This document shows, in pieces, positions 7,296 through 47,886 of a DNA stretch of 64,000 bases; within the stretch, counting starts at the first letter, position 1, and each line of letters opens with the position of its first letter. The translations under genes were made by a program, and so were the position numbers. The stretch covers positions 182,082 through 246,081 of the forward strand of contig LNFC01000023.1 of NCBI GenBank assembly GCA_001464545.1, read 5' to 3'. The notes below the pieces were generated by a model. It was not told the DNA's origin, did not search any database, and was given only the letters and a program-made list of their open reading frames with translations. The stretch is from Acidobacteria bacterium Ga0077551 (GTDB taxonomy: Bacteria; Pseudomonadota; Alphaproteobacteria; Caulobacterales; Hyphomonadaceae).

Positions 7296-10200
7296 ATGTC
7301 GGACTATGTGAAACAATACGAAGCCAATCGCCAGAAACTGATCGACGGGCATTCCTACAATCCGGAAGACGAGAAGGACGCTTGCGGCGTCGGTCTCGTC
7401 GTCTCGCTCGACGGCAAGCCGAAGCGCGAGATCGTGGCGATGGGCATCGCGGCGCTGAAGAACGTCTGGCACCGGGGCGCGGTGGACGCGGACGGCAAGA
7501 CCGGCGACGGCGCGGGCATTCGCCTCGACGTCCCGCAGGATTTCTTCCGCGAACATGTCAGCCGCACGGGCCACAATCCGACCGACGACCGTATCTGCGT
7601 CGGCCAGATCTTCCTTCCGCGTACGGATTTCGCCGCGCAGGAAGCAGGCCGCACGATCGTCGAGCGCGAAGTGCTGCGTTCGGGCTTCTACATCTATGGC
7701 TGGCGCCAGCCGCCGGTGGATGTCTCCGTCATCGGCCAGAAGGCCAAGGACACACGCCCCGCCATCGAGCAGATCATGTTCCGCGATGCCCGTGGCCGCA
7801 GCACGGAAGACATGGAGCGCGAGCTTTATATCTGCCGCCGCCGCATCGAGCGGCGTGCGCGTGAAGCGAGCATCCCGTCTTTCTATGTCTGCTCGCTGAA
7901 CCACAAGTCGCTGATCTACAAGGGCATGTTCCTTGCCGCCGACATCGACAATTTCTATCTCGACCTGCGGGACGAGCGCTTCGTCTCGGCGTTCGCGATC
8001 TATCACCAGCGCTATTCGACCAACACGTTCCCGCAATGGGCGCTCGCCCAGCCCTTCCGCATGATTGCGCATAACGGCGAGATCAACACGCTGCGCGGCA
8101 ACAAGAACTGGATGAAGAGCCACGAGATCCGGATGGTCTCCGAGGCCTACGGCGACAACGTGGATGACATCAAACCGATCATCCCGGATGGCACATCGGA
8201 TTCCGGCGCGCTGGATGCGGTGTGGGAGATGCTCTGCAAGTCCGGCCGCTCGGCGCCGATGGCGAAGGCGATGCTGATCCCCGAAGCCTGGTCGAAACGC
8301 GAGTCGGTGATGCCGATGGCGCACCGCGCGCTGTATGACTATTGCAACTCCGTGATGGAACCCTGGGACGGCCCGGCCGGCATCGCGGCCTTTGATGGCC
8401 GCTGGGCGGTTGCGGGGCTGGACCGCAACGGCCTGCGCCCCTTGCGCTATGCTCTGACGACGGATGGTATCCTTGCCGTGGGCTCGGAAACCGGCATGTG
8501 CCCGCTGGGCGACCATGAAATCGCGCGGCGTGGGTCGATCCCCGCCGGCGGCATGATCGCCGCCGACCTCGAGACCGGCAAGTTCTATGACCACCGGGAG
8601 ATCGTTGATCATCTGGCCGCGAAGGCTCCATACGAGGAGTGGCTGCAGGCGGTTGTCGAGCTGGAGCCCGAAATCGGCCCCGGCCCGGAACCGGTGTTGT
8701 TCAGCCGCGAAGAACTGCTGCGCCGCCAGACGGCCGCCGGCTTCACGCTGGAAACACTGGAGCTGATCCTCGCGCCGATGGCCGAGAGCGCCAAGGAGGC
8801 GATCGGCTCGATGGGCGATGACACGGCGCCTGCCGTGTTGTCCTCTGCCTATCGTCCGATGAGCCACTTCTTCCGCCAGAATTTCAGCCAGGTGACCAAT
8901 CCGCCGATCGACCCCCTGCGCGAAGGCCGGGTGATGAGCCTGCGGACGCGGTTCAAGAATCTCGGCAACGTTCTCGATACGGACAAATCCCAGCAGGAAG
9001 TCTTTGTGCTCGAAAGCCCGGTGCTGACCACCGGGATGTATGAGCGCATGCACACGCGCCTGGGTCTCGGCACCGAAGTCATCGACTGCACGTTTGCTGC
9101 CGATGATGTGACCGCCGAGGGCGCCGCCTTGAAAGATGCGCTGGAGCGTATCCGGCGCGAAGCCGAAGAGGCCGTCCGGGCCGGGCGTGAGCATATCATC
9201 CTGACTGATGAGCATCAGTCGGCCACGCGTATTGCTGTCCCGATGATCCTCGCGACCGGCGCCGTGCATTCGCACCTCGTCGCGCAGGGCCTGCGTACCT
9301 TCTGCTCGATCACCGTGCGTTCGGCCGAGTGTCTGGACACGCACTATTTCGCGGTGCTGATCGGCGTCGGCGCAACCTGCGTGAACGCCTACCTCGCCCA
9401 GGATGCTATCGCCGACCGCCACGCGCGCGGACTGCTGGGCGACCTGTCGCTCGGCCAGGCAGTGAAGAACTTCAAGGACGCGGTCGAGGCCGGCCTCCTG
9501 AAGATCATCTCCAAGATGGGCATCTCGGTCATCTCCTCCTATCGCGGAGGCTACAACTTTGAAGCGCTCGGCCTCAGCCGGGCGCTGGTCGCCGACTATT
9601 TCCCCGGCATGTCGAGCCGCATCTCGGGCCTTGGGCTTGCGGGCCTCGAAGAAAACGCGCTGGTGCGCCACCAGAAAGCGTTCGACGAGGATGTCATCTC
9701 GCTGCCCGTCGGCGGCTTCTACCGCCTGCGCGCTTCGGACGAACTGCACGCGCTGGACGGCACGCTGATCCACACGCTGCAGGCGGCCTGCGACCGCGGC
9801 GACTATGCGATCTACCGCAAGTATGTTGACGCTGTGCATGCCCGCGATCCGATCCAGTTGCGCGACCTGCTCGACTTCAAGGCCGCCGGCGAGCCCATCC
9901 CGCTGAGCCAGGTCCAGTCGATCAACGAAATCCGGAAACGCTTCGTCACGCCCGGCATGTCGCTCGGCGCGCTGTCGCCGGAAGCGCATGGTACGCTGAA
10001 CGTCGCCATGAACCGGATCGGCGCAAAGTCCGTGTCCGGAGAAGGCGGCGAGGACCGCGCGCGCTACCGGCCGCTGCCGAACGGCGACAACATGAACTCG
10101 GCGGTCAAGCAGATCGCCTCCGGCCGCTTTGGCGTGACGGCGGAATATCTCAATGAATGCCGCGAGATCGAGATCAAGGTGGCTCAGGGCGCCAAGCCCG

Positions 10201-11834: not shown

Positions 11835-11862
11835 TTTTCCGCAGCCTTGTTCACCGCCCAAT

Positions 11863-11892
11863 GACCCCTGCACGACATCGTGTGGGGGTCTT
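11863..11892 (+). terminator. Stem-loop after gltB, probable terminator
   Basis: Positions 11863-11874 pair with 11879-11890 (12 bp including two G-U pairs) around a 4-nt loop (ACAT). The hairpin is followed by TT and then a further T-run ten bases on. It sits 29 bp after the gltB stop. The weak immediate U-tract lowers certainty. Its right arm overlaps the first bases of repeat copy A. Confidence 0.5.
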
Positions 11893-12307
11893 GAATCCCT
11901 GAATTTTTCATAGATCCGTGGGCGGAGGTGTTGCGCAAGGTTTGCCGGTGGATTTCGTATCTGCCTGACGGAGCAGAGTTTTATCTTGCCGAAGCTTCCC
12001 TATTGGCGGGCATAAGTCCTCTCATTTCTTCGCCAGAGCGCCTCATCCTGTTGCAGGCATTGCATTCCGGATGGCGATTTTTTCTCATTGATTCTCACTT
12101 TTTATCACTTTGTATCGATCCGCTATCGCTGGCTCTCGGCGTGTCGGATTTCGGCCTTTGGCCTCTATACGACCTGCGAATATGGGGGTGAGGCGGAGTA
12201 TAGTCCCGGCTGAAGGCGTGCGGCGCAAGTTCCGGCGGCTTTTCTTGCAGCGCGTTGATGCGCCTGCGGATTTTGTTTCCGCAGGACGCACATTTCGTTG
12301 CACAAGT
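11886..12307. repeat. 420-bp dispersed intergenic repeat, copy A
   Basis: This fills most of the 489-bp gap between gltB and the convergent DUF4349 gene. It aligns end to end with 37261-37678. Shared blocks include GGGTCTTGAATCC at the left edge, GATCCGTGGGCGGAGGTGTT, GCCTCATCCTGTTGCAGGC, TATCGATC plus GCTATCGCTGG, and TCGGATTTCGGCCTTTGGCC. Frames are broken by single-base indels between copies, so it looks non-coding or decayed. No transposase or terminal inverted repeat was seen. Function unknown. Confidence 0.88.
12143..12173. other. Conserved nested hairpin inside repeat copy A
   Basis: GTCGGAT (12143-12149) faces ATACGAC (12167-12173) with one mismatch. Inside it, GGCC (12153-12156) pairs with GGCC (12160-12163) around a TTT loop, with 3-nt internal loops on both sides. 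The same structure, with a perfect outer stem, is found in copy B at 37518-37548. This is the best conserved part of the repeat. Confidence 0.7.
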
Positions 12308-12323
12308 CAGATGTTGCGGGGGC

Positions 12324-13226
12324 TCAAGCCGCTGGCGGCTTCTTCCGCCGGATACGCGGCCAGATCAGGCGCAGCCAGATCCAGAGCAGGGCCCCGATAA
12401 GGATCAGCCAAGGCAGGCCCACTGCAAAGGCGGTGACGACCGCCGCAACCGCGCTCGCGAGGTTGTAGAAGAAGCTGCCGAACGCATGGCCGAGCGGCTC
12501 CAGCGCGCCTTGCGACAGCGGGTCGGTCTTCGTCTCGTAGCCAACGGAGAGCTGGCTCATGTTGACGCGCTGGCGCAGCGCTGCGAGGCTGGAGGTCAGC
12601 GAGTCGATCTCGCCGTTGACGCGGGCGAGCTCACGCTGGGTCTCCAGCAATTCGCCCAGATTGCCAGGCCGGTCGGCCAGCAATTCCTCGATACGTTCCT
12701 GGAGCAGGATCTGCGCCTTCAGGCGCGCATCGGTGTCGATGATCGTGACGGTCAAATCTTCGGCCGTGGTCTGACGGTTTGTGACTTCGCCCTTCACGGC
12801 TTCGGCTTCCGCTTCGATGCCACCGAGGAACGTGTTGATCCAGACGGGCGTCGCCCGGATGTTCAAGGAGGCAGAGGCTTGATCTTCAGAATAGGCATTC
12901 AGCCAGGAATTGGTGACCACGCAAACGGCCGGCCCGGCCTTGTTGCAAGCGTCGATATGGGCCTGCATCGTAGGCTCAATGGCCGCCACCGGAATGCGCA
13001 GACCGATCGAATGGGAATAGGCGATGTATTGTACGGCGCCGGCAGTTTCCGGCGCAGCTTCGCCGCCCTCAGCAGCGACCGCCTCTTCCATCGGCGCGTC
13101 GGCCATCTTCATGGCTTCCGGCGGCGGCGCCATGGCCGGGCTCGACTCGTAGGCGCGGTCTGACGCGCCGCAGGCGGCCAGCACGATGGCTGACGCGGCG
13201 GCAGCAAGCGAAACTCGGAATTTCAT
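12324..13226 (-). CDS. DUF4349-type lipoprotein
   Basis: A 300-residue envelope protein. The N terminus (MKFRVSLAAAASAIVLAAC) is a lipoprotein signal with lipobox LAAC. A conserved DUF4349-like domain follows, with a predicted coiled coil (roughly 195-245: LQERIEELLADR...LETQRELARVNGEI). A C-terminal membrane segment (about 265-290) ends in a basic RIRRKK tail. DUF4349 proteins have no established function. The start at 13226 was chosen for the signal peptide and its GGGAGGA site. Its stop lies 17 bp from repeat copy A. Confidence 0.8.
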   Translation of the reverse strand: MKFRVSLAAAASAIVLAACGASDRAYESSPAMAPPPEAMKMADAPMEEAVAAEGGEAAPETAGAVQYIAYSHSIGLRIPVAAIEPTMQAHIDACNKAGPAVCVVTNSWLNAYSEDQASASLNIRATPVWINTFLGGIEAEAEAVKGEVTNRQTTAEDLTVTIIDTDARLKAQILLQERIEELLADRPGNLGELLETQRELARVNGEIDSLTSSLAALRQRVNMSQLSVGYETKTDPLSQGALEPLGHAFGSFFYNLASAVAAVVTAFAVGLPWLILIGALLWIWLRLIWPRIRRKKPPAA

Positions 13227-18884: not shown

Positions 18885-18988
18885 CTAGAGCCGGCGATCA
18901 GATGGAATCAGATCGCCGGCTCTAGTTTCTTGTTTTTTCGCGAAGCCTTCCGCTCAACCGGTACCCACTTGAGCGGACATCGCTCTAG
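18885..18988. repeat. Palindromic mosaic element (RIME/ABC-like), copy 1
   Basis: A perfect 15-bp inverted repeat (18885-18899 with 18911-18925) starting with CTAGAG is followed by a T-rich run (18926-18938). Next comes a second stem-loop, CGCTCAA (18951-18957) with TTGAGCG (18969-18975), and finally GCTCTAG at 18982-18988. The inner segment CCGGT-CCCACTT and the terminal GCTCTA resemble the short intergenic mosaic elements widespread in Alphaproteobacteria. The first hairpin plus T-run would work as a terminator for the upstream gene. Copy 2 is at 47784-47886. Confidence 0.85.
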
Positions 18989-35199: not shown

Positions 35200-36141
35200 T
35201 TGTCCCGCCAGAGAAAACGCAAGGGCGAGCCCGTCACGGGCTGGCTGAACCTGTTCAAGCCCGTCGACATGACCTCGACGCAGGCCGTCGCGATCGTCAA
35301 ACGCCTGTTCAATGCCGAGAAGGTCGGCCATGGCGGCACGCTCGATCCGTTGGCGGACGGTATCCTGCCGATCGCGCTGGGCGAAGCGACGAAGACCGTC
35401 CAGTGGGCGATGGATTCCGAAAAGGAATACGTCTTCACGATCCGCTGGGGCATCTCCACCGCCAGCCAGGACGCCGAAGCCGATATAACCGCGACGTCCG
35501 ATGTGCGACCCGCGCGTGAGGCGGTGGAAGCCGCGCTGAAGAACTATATTGGCAAGATCCGGCAGGTGCCGCCGAAATTTTCCGCCATCAAGGTGGCGGG
35601 CGAGCGGGCCTACGATCTCGCCCGGGGCGGCGAGGTGTTCGAGCTTGAGGCGCGCGAAGTGGATGTTCACGCCGCCAAGGTGATCGGTATGCCGGATGCG
35701 GATCATTCGGTGATCCACGTCGTGTCCGGCAAGGGATTCTATGTCCGTGCGATGGCGCGGGACCTGGCCGCCGACCTCGGCGCCGAGGGCCATATCAGCC
35801 AGCTGCGGCGCACGCGCGTCGGCGCGTTCGAGGCGGCGAAGGCCGTTTCAGTTGCCGACCTGCAGGCGCTGGCCGAGGACCGGGAGGGACTGTTCGCGCA
35901 CCTCAAACCGCTGCACGCGGTGCTGACCGCCCTGCCGCAAGTGCAGGTCACCACGAACGATGCCGGCAACCTGCGTCAGGGGCGCACGATCATGCTGCTG
36001 CCGCACGTCGTCGAAGGCTGGCGCGCCGGTCGCGCGGAGGAAGATGACCGGATGGCGCTGGCCCTTGCAGGGGATGATGCGGTCGCGCTCGGCGAAGTAC
36101 GCGCCGGGCATTTCGAGCCCGTGCGCGTGTTCGCGGTCTAA
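35200..36141 (+). CDS. truB: tRNA pseudouridine(55) synthase
   Basis: Forms pseudouridine 55 in the T-loop of tRNAs (313 aa). The family start WLNLFKPVDMTSTQAV and the catalytic-Asp motif GGTLDPLADGILPIA are clear, as are RQVPPKFSAIKVAGERAY and GFYVRAMARDLA. No ATG fits. TTG 35200 is chosen because GGAG (35190-35193) lies 6 nt upstream; another in-frame TTG at 35188 overlaps that site. Its stop overlaps the convergent adh stop by 4 bp. Confidence 0.93.
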   Translation: MSRQRKRKGEPVTGWLNLFKPVDMTSTQAVAIVKRLFNAEKVGHGGTLDPLADGILPIALGEATKTVQWAMDSEKEYVFTIRWGISTASQDAEADITATSDVRPAREAVEAALKNYIGKIRQVPPKFSAIKVAGERAYDLARGGEVFELEAREVDVHAAKVIGMPDADHSVIHVVSGKGFYVRAMARDLAADLGAEGHISQLRRTRVGAFEAAKAVSVADLQALAEDREGLFAHLKPLHAVLTALPQVQVTTNDAGNLRQGRTIMLLPHVVEGWRAGRAEEDDRMALALAGDDAVALGEVRAGHFEPVRVFAV

Positions 36142-37178
36142 AGCGTCGCCATGTCGATCACGAAGCGGTATTTGACGTCGCCCTTGACCACGCGGTCATA
36201 GGCGGGGTTCACGTCTTTCATGTCGATCATTTCGATGTCGCAGACGATGTTATGTTCCGCGCAGAAATCGAGCATCTCCTGCGTCTCCGCGATGCCGCCG
36301 ATGCCGGAGCCCGCGACGCTGCGGCGGTTGGCGAGCAGCAGGCCGCCATGCATTTCCTCCAGCGGCTCGATCGCGCCGACGATGACCATCGTGCCATTGC
36401 GTGCCAGCAGGCCGAGATAGGGATTGAGGTCGTGCTTGACCGGCACGGTGTTGAGCAGGAAATCGAAACTGCCGCGATGCGCTTTCATCTGTTCACGGTC
36501 ATTCGAGACCAGCACATCCGACACGCCGAGACGGCGGGCATCCGCGCCCTTTTCCGGCGAGGTGGTGATCATCACGACTTCGGCGCCGAGCGCGACGGCG
36601 AACTTGATGCCCATGTGGCCGAGGCCGCCAAGGCCGATGACGCCGACCTTGTCGCCTTTCGAGACAGCCCAATGCTTCAGCGGTGACCAGCTGGTGATGC
36701 CGGCGCACAGCAGGGGCGCGGCGGCAGCGGGGTCGAGCTTTTCGGAGATCTTCAGGACGAAACTGTCGCGCACGACGATCTGTTTCGAATAGCCGCCATA
36801 GGTCGGCCCGCCGATCACCGGCTCGGTGCCGCCATAGGTGCCGACCGAGCCTTTCTCGCAATACTGCTCGTCGCCGTCATGGCAGGCGGTGCATTTGAGG
36901 CAGGCGTCCACCAGGCAGCCGACGCCGACAAGATCGCCCACCTTGTGCTTCGTCACCTTGGGGCCGACGGCGCTGACGCGCCCGACAATCTCGTGGCCCG
37001 GCACGAAGGGATATTTGGCGCGGCCCCATTCGTTGCGGGCCGAGTGGATGTCGCTGTGGCAGATGCCGCAATGGGTGACTTCGATCAGTACGTCATCGGG
37101 CTGCAGGTCGCGCCTTGTGATCTCGAAGGGCTTCAGGAGGTCTGTGGGACCCTGTGTGGCATAGGCGGCGACTTGCAT
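36138..37178 (-). CDS. Zinc-dependent alcohol dehydrogenase (CAD/YahK-like)
   Basis: A 346-residue NADP(H)-type medium-chain dehydrogenase. Catalytic zinc ligands are Cys in HCGICHSD and the His-Glu of PGHEIVG; structural zinc comes from the four cysteines between GCLVDACLKC and CHDGDEQYC. The cofactor motif is GLGGLGHMGIKFA. It resembles cinnamyl-alcohol/aldehyde reductases such as YahK. It is oriented against the translation operon and was probably inserted between truB and rpsO. Repeat copy B begins 83 bp upstream of its ATG. Confidence 0.92.
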   Translation of the reverse strand: MQVAAYATQGPTDLLKPFEITRRDLQPDDVLIEVTHCGICHSDIHSARNEWGRAKYPFVPGHEIVGRVSAVGPKVTKHKVGDLVGVGCLVDACLKCTACHDGDEQYCEKGSVGTYGGTEPVIGGPTYGGYSKQIVVRDSFVLKISEKLDPAAAAPLLCAGITSWSPLKHWAVSKGDKVGVIGLGGLGHMGIKFAVALGAEVVMITTSPEKGADARRLGVSDVLVSNDREQMKAHRGSFDFLLNTVPVKHDLNPYLGLLARNGTMVIVGAIEPLEEMHGGLLLANRRSVAGSGIGGIAETQEMLDFCAEHNIVCDIEMIDMKDVNPAYDRVVKGDVKYRFVIDMATL

Positions 37179-37260: not shown

Positions 37261-37678
37261 GGGTCTTGAATCCGGGCGTTTTGCAGGGATCCGTGGGCGG
37301 AGGTGTTGCGGAAGGTTCGGGGAGGGATTTCACAACGGCTTGACGGGGATGGGTTTTATTTTCCGGAGCCGCGTTTTTTGTAGGCGCAAATCCTCTTGCG
37401 GCGCTCACAGACGGCCTCATCCTGTTGCAGGCTTTGTATTCTTGATGTCGATTCATTCTCAAGGATTCTCATTTTTTATCACTTGGTATCGATCGGCTAT
37501 CGCTGGTTCTCGGGGCTGTCGGATTTCGGCCTTTGGCCTCTATCCGACCGTCGTGCGGGGGTGAGCTGAGTATAACCCCGCGCCGAGGGGTGTGGCGCAC
37601 GTTTTCCGGCGAAATCTTTCAGGCGCTTGAGGCGGTTGCGGATTTTGAATCGGGCGGGGGCGGATTTGGTTGCGCAAG
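37261..37678. repeat. 420-bp dispersed intergenic repeat, copy B
   Basis: Most of the 523-bp gap between the adh start and the DUF2721 gene end is this repeat, homologous to 11886-12307. Identical blocks include GATCCGTGGGCGGAGGTGTT, GCCTCATCCTGTTGCAGGC, TATCGATC plus GCTATCGCTGG and the GGCCTTTGGCC core. Divergence is spread over its length with small indels, including a one-base indel just before the conserved hairpin. The remaining bases at 37179-37260 hold the adh 5' region, with no clear promoter. Confidence 0.88.
37518..37548. other. Conserved nested hairpin inside repeat copy B
   Basis: GTCGGAT (37518-37524) pairs perfectly with ATCCGAC (37542-37548). Internally GGCC (37528-37531) pairs with GGCC (37535-37538) around TTT, separated by 3-nt internal loops. 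Copy A has the same layout with one mismatch. Confidence 0.72.
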
Positions 37679-46800: not shown

Positions 46801-47787
46801 ATGCCGGCATCGAAACTCAAAGTCGTCGTCACCCGCAAGCTGCCGGCCCCGGTCGAGCTGCGGATGAAAGAGCTGTTCGACGCCCGGCTGAACGAGGCCG
46901 ATATCCCGATGACCACCGAGCAGCTGGCCGAGGCGATGCAGACCGCCGATGTGCTGGTGCCGACGGTGACCGACCGGATCGACGGGCGCCTGATGGCCCG
47001 GGCCGGCCAGCAGCTGCGCCTGATCGCCCAGTTCGGGGCCGGGGTGGACAATATCGACGTTGCCAGCGCCGTGCAGCGCGGCATCACCGTCACCAACACG
47101 CCGGGCGTGCTGACCGACGATACCGCTGATGTCGCCATGGCGCTGATCCTCGCCGTGCCGCGCCGCCTGCACGAGGGCGTGCAGATCATGGAAAGCGGCA
47201 AGTTCGATGGCTGGACGCCGACCTGGATGATGGGCCGCCGCCTCTCCGGCAAGCGGCTCGGCATCATCGGCATGGGCCGCATCGGCCAGGCGGTCGCGCG
47301 CCGCGCCAAGGCGTTCGGCATGCAGATCCACTATCACAACCGCAAGCCCGTTGGCCCGCGCATCGAGGAAGGCCTAGAGGCGACCTATTGGGATTCGCTG
47401 GACCAGATGCTGGCGCGGATGGACATCGTCTCGGTCAACTGCCCGCACACGCCGGCGACCTTCCACTTGATCAATGCCCGCCGTCTCGCGCTGATGAAGG
47501 CGGACGCCTACATCATCAACACGGCGCGCGGCGAAGTGATCGACGAGGCCGCGCTGGCCCGCGCCATTCGCGGCGGCAAGCTGGCCGGCGCCGGGCTTGA
47601 CGTGTTCGAGCGCGAGCCCTCGGTGAACCCGGACCTGATCGGCCTGCCCAACGTGCTGCTGCTGCCGCACATGGGCTCGTCCACGATCGAGGGGCGCACC
47701 GAGATGGGCGAGAAGGTGATCATCAACATCAAGACCTTCGCCGACGGCCACCGCCCACCCGACCGCGTGATCCCCGCGATTCTCTAG
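46801..47787 (+). CDS. D-2-hydroxyacid dehydrogenase (D-glycerate dehydrogenase/glyoxylate reductase type)
   Basis: A 328-residue NAD(P)-dependent dehydrogenase. The Rossmann motif is GMGRIGQAVARR; catalytic residues are Arg (QFGAGVDNID region), Glu (FEREP) and His (LLPHMGSST), with NTARGEVIDE as the family signature. ATG 46801 is preferred over 46771 because GGGAG lies just before it. Its TAG stop (47785-47787) falls in the CTAGAG that begins mosaic repeat copy 2. Confidence 0.9.
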   Translation: MPASKLKVVVTRKLPAPVELRMKELFDARLNEADIPMTTEQLAEAMQTADVLVPTVTDRIDGRLMARAGQQLRLIAQFGAGVDNIDVASAVQRGITVTNTPGVLTDDTADVAMALILAVPRRLHEGVQIMESGKFDGWTPTWMMGRRLSGKRLGIIGMGRIGQAVARRAKAFGMQIHYHNRKPVGPRIEEGLEATYWDSLDQMLARMDIVSVNCPHTPATFHLINARRLALMKADAYIINTARGEVIDEAALARAIRGGKLAGAGLDVFEREPSVNPDLIGLPNVLLLPHMGSSTIEGRTEMGEKVIINIKTFADGHRPPDRVIPAIL

Positions 47788-47886
47788 AGAAACCGATCTG
47801 ATGGTATCAGATTGCTCGCTCTAGATTTTTAGTTGGTCGCAGATTCTTGCGCTCAACCGGTGCCCACTTGAGCGGAATTTGCTCTA
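47784..47886. repeat. Palindromic mosaic element (RIME/ABC-like), copy 2
   Basis: Same architecture as 18885-18988. CTAGAG (47784-47789) faces CTCTAG (47819-47824), with an inner stem between GATCTGAT and ATCAGATT. A T-run (47826-47830) follows, then CGCTCAA (47850-47856) pairs with TTGAGCG (47868-47874), and GCTCTA ends it at 47881-47886. The element fills the gap between two convergent genes and overlaps both of their stop codons. The first hairpin could act as a terminator on the + strand. Confidence 0.85.

Follow-up and report, generated by a model that had tools for sequence, protein, structure and literature searches.

The window analysed here, a stretch of 64,000 nucleotides from a Hyphomonas genome (G000; 3.08 Mb in 25 contigs, 92% complete), contains two intergenic stretches that we read as long-form copies of a Hyphomonas repeat, the core of which would come from the start of a small protein gene, here called A3, and survive as a promoter-derived element. 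From the sequence comparisons set out below we put the probability of this reading at about 0.6. Specifically, the element is likely an ORF-less, promoter-derived mosaic repeat, with a promoter activity that we infer from the adjacency of its core to A3 genes, the presence or absence of the ORF at two orthologous loci, the ATG and TAnAnT motifs that are kept and the slow change of conserved columns.

Dispersed repeats of bacteria are usually traced to transposon ends or to REP units. For the present repeat, the source of the core can be followed to where a protein gene begins, and the same locus is found with and without that gene in relatives, offering a testable route from ordinary gene-start DNA to a multi-copy intergenic element. 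The analysis also brings to light a small protein family that has no name and is matched in almost all of the Hyphomonas genomes searched.

Anatomy of the two window copies

The copies lie in the gaps gltB-DUF4349 (copy 1) and adh-DUF2721 (copy 2), these names being putative labels taken over from the original prediction, which had reported similarity over the full length of the two intergenic blocks. The alignment bears this out (76% identity, positions 1-421 of the 422-nucleotide query, E 8.6e-74), and the extent proposed for copy 1 (11886..12307) aligns throughout; a GC-rich hairpin lies just outside its proposed start. Read in the + direction, the copies run through a left GC hairpin, module A, an H2-like hairpin, a TCTCA/TATCA array, a REP-type palindrome and module A' (Table 1). 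Module A is the core, of about 115 bp, and A' is a diverged second A that is recovered by A's own profile. Two features had gone unnoticed in the original prediction: the central palindrome is a REP-type unit, and the core corresponds on the minus strand to the sequence that precedes the genes of a small multi-copy family.

Table 1. Parts of the two repeat copies, with positions in the window
Feature	Copy	Position	Strand	Evidence or remark
Left hairpin, GC-rich (GACCCC..GGGGTC), left edge	1	11863..11890		sequence; fold of orthologous region L031
Module A, without TATACT/ATG end	1	11910..12016	-	modA2 profile E 4.2e-17; row L001
H2-like imperfect hairpin region	1	12042..12073		alignment; weak covariation, in short-form copies only
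TCTCA/TATCA array, ~10-bp phasing by eye	1	12080..12139		alignment
REP-type palindrome GTCGGATTTCGGCCTTTGGCCTCTATACGAC	1	12142..12174		found alone between genes in other Hyphomonas
Module A', minus-strand TATACT, no ATG	1	12195..12307	-	modA2 profile E 1.5e-11; row L001
Module A, without TATACT/ATG end	2	37289..37389	-	modA2 profile E 4.7e-26; row L004
H2-like region	2	37418..37448		alignment
TCTCA/TATCA array	2	37455..37513		alignment
REP-type palindrome	2	37517..37549		sequence
Module A', minus-strand TATACT, no ATG	2	37568..37678	-	modA2 profile E 3.2e-17; row L004

The repeat had been described as non-coding and as belonging to no named family, and we agree on both counts. In each of five frames all 14 long-form copies of G000 contain stops, and in the sixth a single copy lacks them; a coding repeat was rejected because hardly any frame of the long form is open. 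Among the 23 short-form copies, 1-5 are open over about 236 bp in a given frame. No Rfam match was obtained for the window at the gathering threshold or for 11850-12330, which takes in copy 1, even at E<=1. This last result also bears on the idea that the repeat is a structured regulatory RNA family dispersed over the genome, which we consider very improbable: hairpins do recur, and in a pair test made on short-form copies a few H2 pairs rise above shuffles (reached, for example, by 7, 4 and 21 of 500), but H1 hardly varies and most H2 pairs are not above shuffles. A covarying RNA was rejected, since single hairpins look compensatory by eye but pair counts are mostly at shuffle level. The earlier suggestion of a selected structured RNA is thus retained in part for selection, given the slowly changing conserved columns described below, and is only weakly supported for structure. 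A phage or plasmid origin was also rejected, as a distant-mode search of copy 1 against plasmids and of copy 2 against phages gave no match.

The window holds a second, unrelated pair of intergenic repeats, at 18885-18987 and 47784-47886, each of 103 nt and 77% identical to one another, with the common core GCTCAACCGGT(A/G)CCCACTTGAGCGGA.

Module A and the genes that follow it

Outside the clade of the window genome, minus-strand module A stops 3-5 nt before an ATG in all 27 modules examined (from at least 70 module hits). The ORF that follows is A3 or its degraded remains in 24 cases, reaches the contig end after about 14 codons in one and is a different ORF in two. These two (L262 and L267, MDQ(S/T)PPPP...) lie in syntenic stretches of G018 and G021, and it may be that the gene-start module can pass from one gene to another.

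A3 is a small multi-copy protein of about 100-135 residues, encoded directly behind minus-strand module A. It has matches in at least 39 of 42 Hyphomonas genomes, reaching at least 18 in a single one, and 98 homologues in a large protein collection; among the matches listed there are none in G000, G024 and G011, and at least two in G051. Over its first 92 codons an orthologous pair has a dN/dS of 0.07, while close paralogues have 0.15 and 0.16 and six more distant pairs 0.32-0.53; the protein is therefore under constraint. A3 is a real protein and represents an unnamed small family. Seven A3 proteins gave no family over the cut-off in Pfam or NCBIfam and three gave none in PHROG; its sequence had no match among solved structures at E<=1, and a fold search with the predicted model (pLDDT 78, pTM 0.48) had no PDB match at E<=0.001. 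Literature titles and abstracts, among the matches listed, contain no description of the repeat or of the A3 family. H. neptunium (G016) has at least 5 module hits and at least 12 matches to A3. In this species two A3 copies lie inside a 1.84-kb stretch that is repeated at 96% identity (L255:2349-4185, L256:3180-4981), possibly a recent duplication or a larger mobile unit.

Read from the alignment, minus-strand module A would carry a C-rich region with A tracts, then a -35-like hexamer (TTGCGC/TTCCGC), the palindrome CTCCGnnnnCGGAG in a spacer of 19-20 bp and TATACT about 6 nt before the ATG. Taken together, TATACT-N6-ATG, the spacer palindrome and the -35-like hexamer would be the layout of a leaderless-mRNA promoter, from which module A is predicted to drive transcription. 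The related Caulobacter has many leaderless mRNAs (375, in the excerpted text of PMC4117421).

How far these motifs are kept depends on the form of the repeat. Copies bearing an ORF have the ATG in 27 of 27 and TAnAnT, a -10-like hexamer about 6 nt ahead of it, in 21 of 27. Among 55 short-form copies of the clade, a count that takes in the single copy of G014, an ATG is found in 46 in the range searched (at one offset in 43) and TAnAnT in 40, and by inspection the codons after the ATG are often alike (M-I-T/S-Q-E-I/F-S-Q-P). Counting against the promoter reading, module A of the long form has lost TAnAnT (0/37) and mostly the ATG (2/37), and a sigma-70 scan of both window copies found no site. 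Module A' of the long form keeps TAnAnT in 33 of 37, with an ATG nearby in 2 of 37, and in the window it would likely be the active part. The window copies would at most initiate non-coding minus-strand transcripts through the REP palindrome, predicted to run towards the gltB 3' end from copy 1 and, following the minus-strand reading of A', towards the gene at 36138-37178 from copy 2.

The ORF comes and goes at two orthologous loci. At the first (L185 in G000, L215 in G024), an intact A3 ORF comes after module A in G010 and G001 and a truncated one in G022; in G000 and G024 module A and the ATG align, the ORF is gone and the array and hairpin region stand on the other side. At the second (L026/L110/L108) the ORF is found in G021 and in none of G000, G024 and G051; the ATG is retained in two of these three ORF-less genomes, G024 reading CTG. 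A third orthologous locus, L049/L261, was rejected as a case of ORF loss, as its copies are in opposite orientation. More tentatively, and with the odds against it, the A3 family may have lost its coding part clade-wide, its promoters being extended by array, REP unit and second promoter and multiplied to dozens of loci as selected minus-strand starts at gene 3' ends, with the short form keeping the leaderless ATG and the start of a mini-peptide.

Distribution, turnover and age of the copies

The original prediction had seen a dispersed repeat in two copies. It is dispersed, but the number falls far short: the 422-bp query has 46 matches in the genome at E<=1 and a profile search places the repeat at 37 loci, and the check for further copies that had been proposed finds them both in this genome and in related ones. 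By profile, G000 has at least 51 modules at its 37 loci, of which 14 are long (both modules, as in the window) and 23 short (one module), a few loci being weak or cut by contig ends. With duplicate loci merged prior to counting, the profile total is 99 loci: 37 in G000 and, from the stretches fetched, 29 in G024, 14 in G051, 11 in G011 and 8 across four further genomes. Several of the clade genomes are MAGs, and some copies are cut at contig ends. The module model has at least 67 hits in G024 and at least 51 in G000. For G024, 44 modules at 29 loci were examined, so that the number of G000 loci without an orthologue is an upper bound.

Beyond the clade, a sequence-only module model detects module A in at least 16 of 42 Hyphomonas genomes. 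Twelve of 299 genomes drawn from the order match this model at E<=0.001; nine of them are Hyphomonas, and the three outside the genus match weakly (3.7e-6 to 7e-4). In G010, G021, G023, G008 and G001 a number of module A hits are no more than about 270 bp away from a contig end, suggesting that assembly of these genomes stops at long copies that are nearly identical. Some public MAGs, by title Candidatus Sulfopaludibacter (CAMDAC) and uncultured Acidobacteria (CALGEF), match G024 and G011 (L056-L058, L061-L066, L068, L069, L072-L077, L079-L081), and their names look wrong, as the element sequences agree with those of G024 and G011, which are placed in the window's genus.

Position was assessed with neighbouring genes taken from our own codon-usage ORF caller rather than from annotation. 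Of 34 G000 loci for which a right-hand neighbour was called, 29 have that gene's 3' end pointing at the element (p 4e-5 against one half), and so do 23/29 loci in G024, 13/14 in G051 and 9/10 in G011, counts that are not independent of G000. The minus-strand element therefore usually follows a stop codon, an orientation bias of the kind expected if a gene had been set behind another in the same orientation. By arrangement, the 34 loci comprise 20 convergent, 9 tandem with the 3' end at the right, 4 tandem the other way and 1 divergent.

Such a position could also suit a 3'-end transcription terminator, for example a Rho-dependent one, with minus-strand A as a C-rich, G-poor loading site behind the stop codon, an explanation that we hold to be improbable. 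The convergent share (20/34) compares with 7/52 among the window's gene pairs, and composition fits: minus-strand A has mean C of 0.365 and G of 0.177, with C/G at least 1.34 in 74 of 74 modules, and the best 78-nt value of (C-G)/78, copies below 90 bp having been dropped, averages 0.289 (minimum 0.167) in 34 elements against 0.13 (maximum 0.41) at 50 gene ends of the window. However, module A also precedes A3 genes, a place in which ending transcription is not the role one would first expect, and the conserved TATACT-ATG end is not needed for Rho loading. Copy 1 has 2 intrinsic-terminator-like sites where 0.8 would be expected, and copy 2 has 0 where 1.4 would be.

Filled and empty sites were compared at the loci of the two window copies. 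Copy 1 is found only in G000 and G024, where about 468 bp have been gained between the gltB and DUF4349 stop codons, and the element is present in none of 12 other relatives inspected: the gap is 25-26 bp in G051, G011, G014, G001, G010 and G022, 11 bp in G018, 16 bp in G044 and 28 bp in G043, and is of other sequence in G006 (63 bp), G007 (67 bp) and G021 (about 140 bp). Copy 2 is present in G000, G011 and G051 and absent from G024, G014, G022 and G010; in these four genomes a short gap or other sequence separates the two genes. Copies have thus been both gained and lost. The adh-DUF2721 site itself collects different inserts, with a gene-sized insertion in G010 (L126; putatively phosphoglycerate-mutase-like, by eye) and a large palindrome in G014 (L125); at the element-less site of G024 (L124) the DUF2721 frame seems, by eye, stop-less and run on.

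This turnover brings in a rival explanation, that of a non-autonomous mobile mosaic repeat, BIME- or MITE-like, that carries old gene-start sequence as baggage and has no present function. The gain of copy 1 in the G000/G024 lineage, the REP-type unit inside the element and an average divergence near the four-fold rate all speak for it. We nevertheless regard it as unlikely: terminal repeats, which the original prediction had likewise not seen, and a target duplication are both lacking at the two sites compared (old sites, and so a weak test), no Y1 transposase match is found in G000, and conserved columns change more slowly in place. Against the promoter-derived reading, copy 1 is a fairly young ORF-less gain, so that ORF-less copies may spread, which is unexpected for a mere remnant; alternatively, copy 1 may have lost its ORF after arrival.

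A recently spreading element had been one of the two options first offered, and it applies to copy 1, gained in the G000/G024 lineage, but not to the family as a whole. Recent spread of the whole family was rejected because long-form paralogues within G000 are 62-82% identical (median 70%) and orthologues group in the tree. The 29 loci examined in G024 include a flank-matched orthologue for 21 of the 37 in G000, and the tree draws 7 of 7 long-form orthologue pairs as sisters, with printed support of at least 0.92 for five; L006/L051 share a clade (1.0) with L204, and L002/L202 are without printed support.

Orthologue identity was compared with that of four-fold sites, leaving out pairs with unequal module number (1/21 for G000-G024, 1/11 for G000-G051). 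For G000-G024 the mean is 0.852 (20 pairs) against 0.839 at 8313 four-fold sites of flanking genes, for G051-G011 it is 0.841 (9 pairs) against 0.884, and for G000-G051 0.723 (10 pairs) against 0.760. With orthologue identity about equal to or below that of four-fold sites, the average position of the element is close to neutral. Five other intergenic regions per pair are more conserved than the elements (0.955 and 0.947), so that constraint is partial at best; they were rejected as a neutral yardstick, being only five per pair and likely to be promoters or missed genes.

Within the element, rates differ between columns. Column conservation was derived from the G051 and G011 copies alone and then put to the test with G000-G024 orthologues, copies below 90 bp being dropped; from the lowest to the highest conservation quartile identity rises from 0.795 to 0.904 in the short form (13 pairs) and from 0.772 to 0.917 in the long form (7 pairs). 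All four bases, taken one at a time, show the slower change at conserved columns (Fisher p 8e-4 or less). Since columns conserved in the copies of other species are also slow between orthologues, part of the element is probably still under selection. Gene conversion between copies could give a similar column pattern, but the tree evidence argues against strong gene conversion.

Comparison with known repeat classes

MITEs are short, non-coding, dispersed repeats related to a longer, ORF-bearing form. The family described here is like them in being short, non-coding and dispersed with an ORF-bearing longer relative, but its ORF, A3, is no known transposase and stands on one side of the module only. 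Terminal inverted repeats and a target-site duplication, as expected of MITEs, were not seen at the two old sites compared, and in place of a parent transposon with a transposase the ORF-bearing relatives encode A3.

Another alphaproteobacterial case is provided by Br-REP1 and Br-REP2 of Bradyrhizobium (excerpted text of PMC5082802), which are likewise composite repeats, lie near the 3' ends of genes and diverge quickly among related species, but which, as described there, are not connected with sequence upstream of a small gene family.

The family is also like REP or GTAG-tagged palindromes and BIMEs (PMC3733652 and PMC2817692, both as excerpted) in being intergenic, present in many copies and a mosaic of units; the excerpted text of PMC3733652 mentions neither Hyphomonas nor Caulobacter. 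It contains one REP-type palindrome, flanked by GTAG in many copies. Compared with a GTAG-REP, an imperfect palindrome of 20-40 bp with GTAG at one end, the 33-bp palindrome has a degenerate GTAG in both window copies; the GTAG flank is seen in copies of other species and in several family copies. A reading of the short hits in other species as the TCTCA array, perhaps a Fur box, was rejected, as these hits are the REP palindrome. For a cognate RAYT (Y1_Tnp, PF01797) there is no match in G000 (at 92% completeness) and one in G024; across 42 genomes PF01797 matches at E<=0.001 in nine and over the cut-off in four. Where a BIME would have regularly spaced, alternating REPs, each window copy has a single REP-type unit, and, unlike REPs and BIMEs, the family has as its core a 115-bp, largely non-palindromic, oriented gene-start module.
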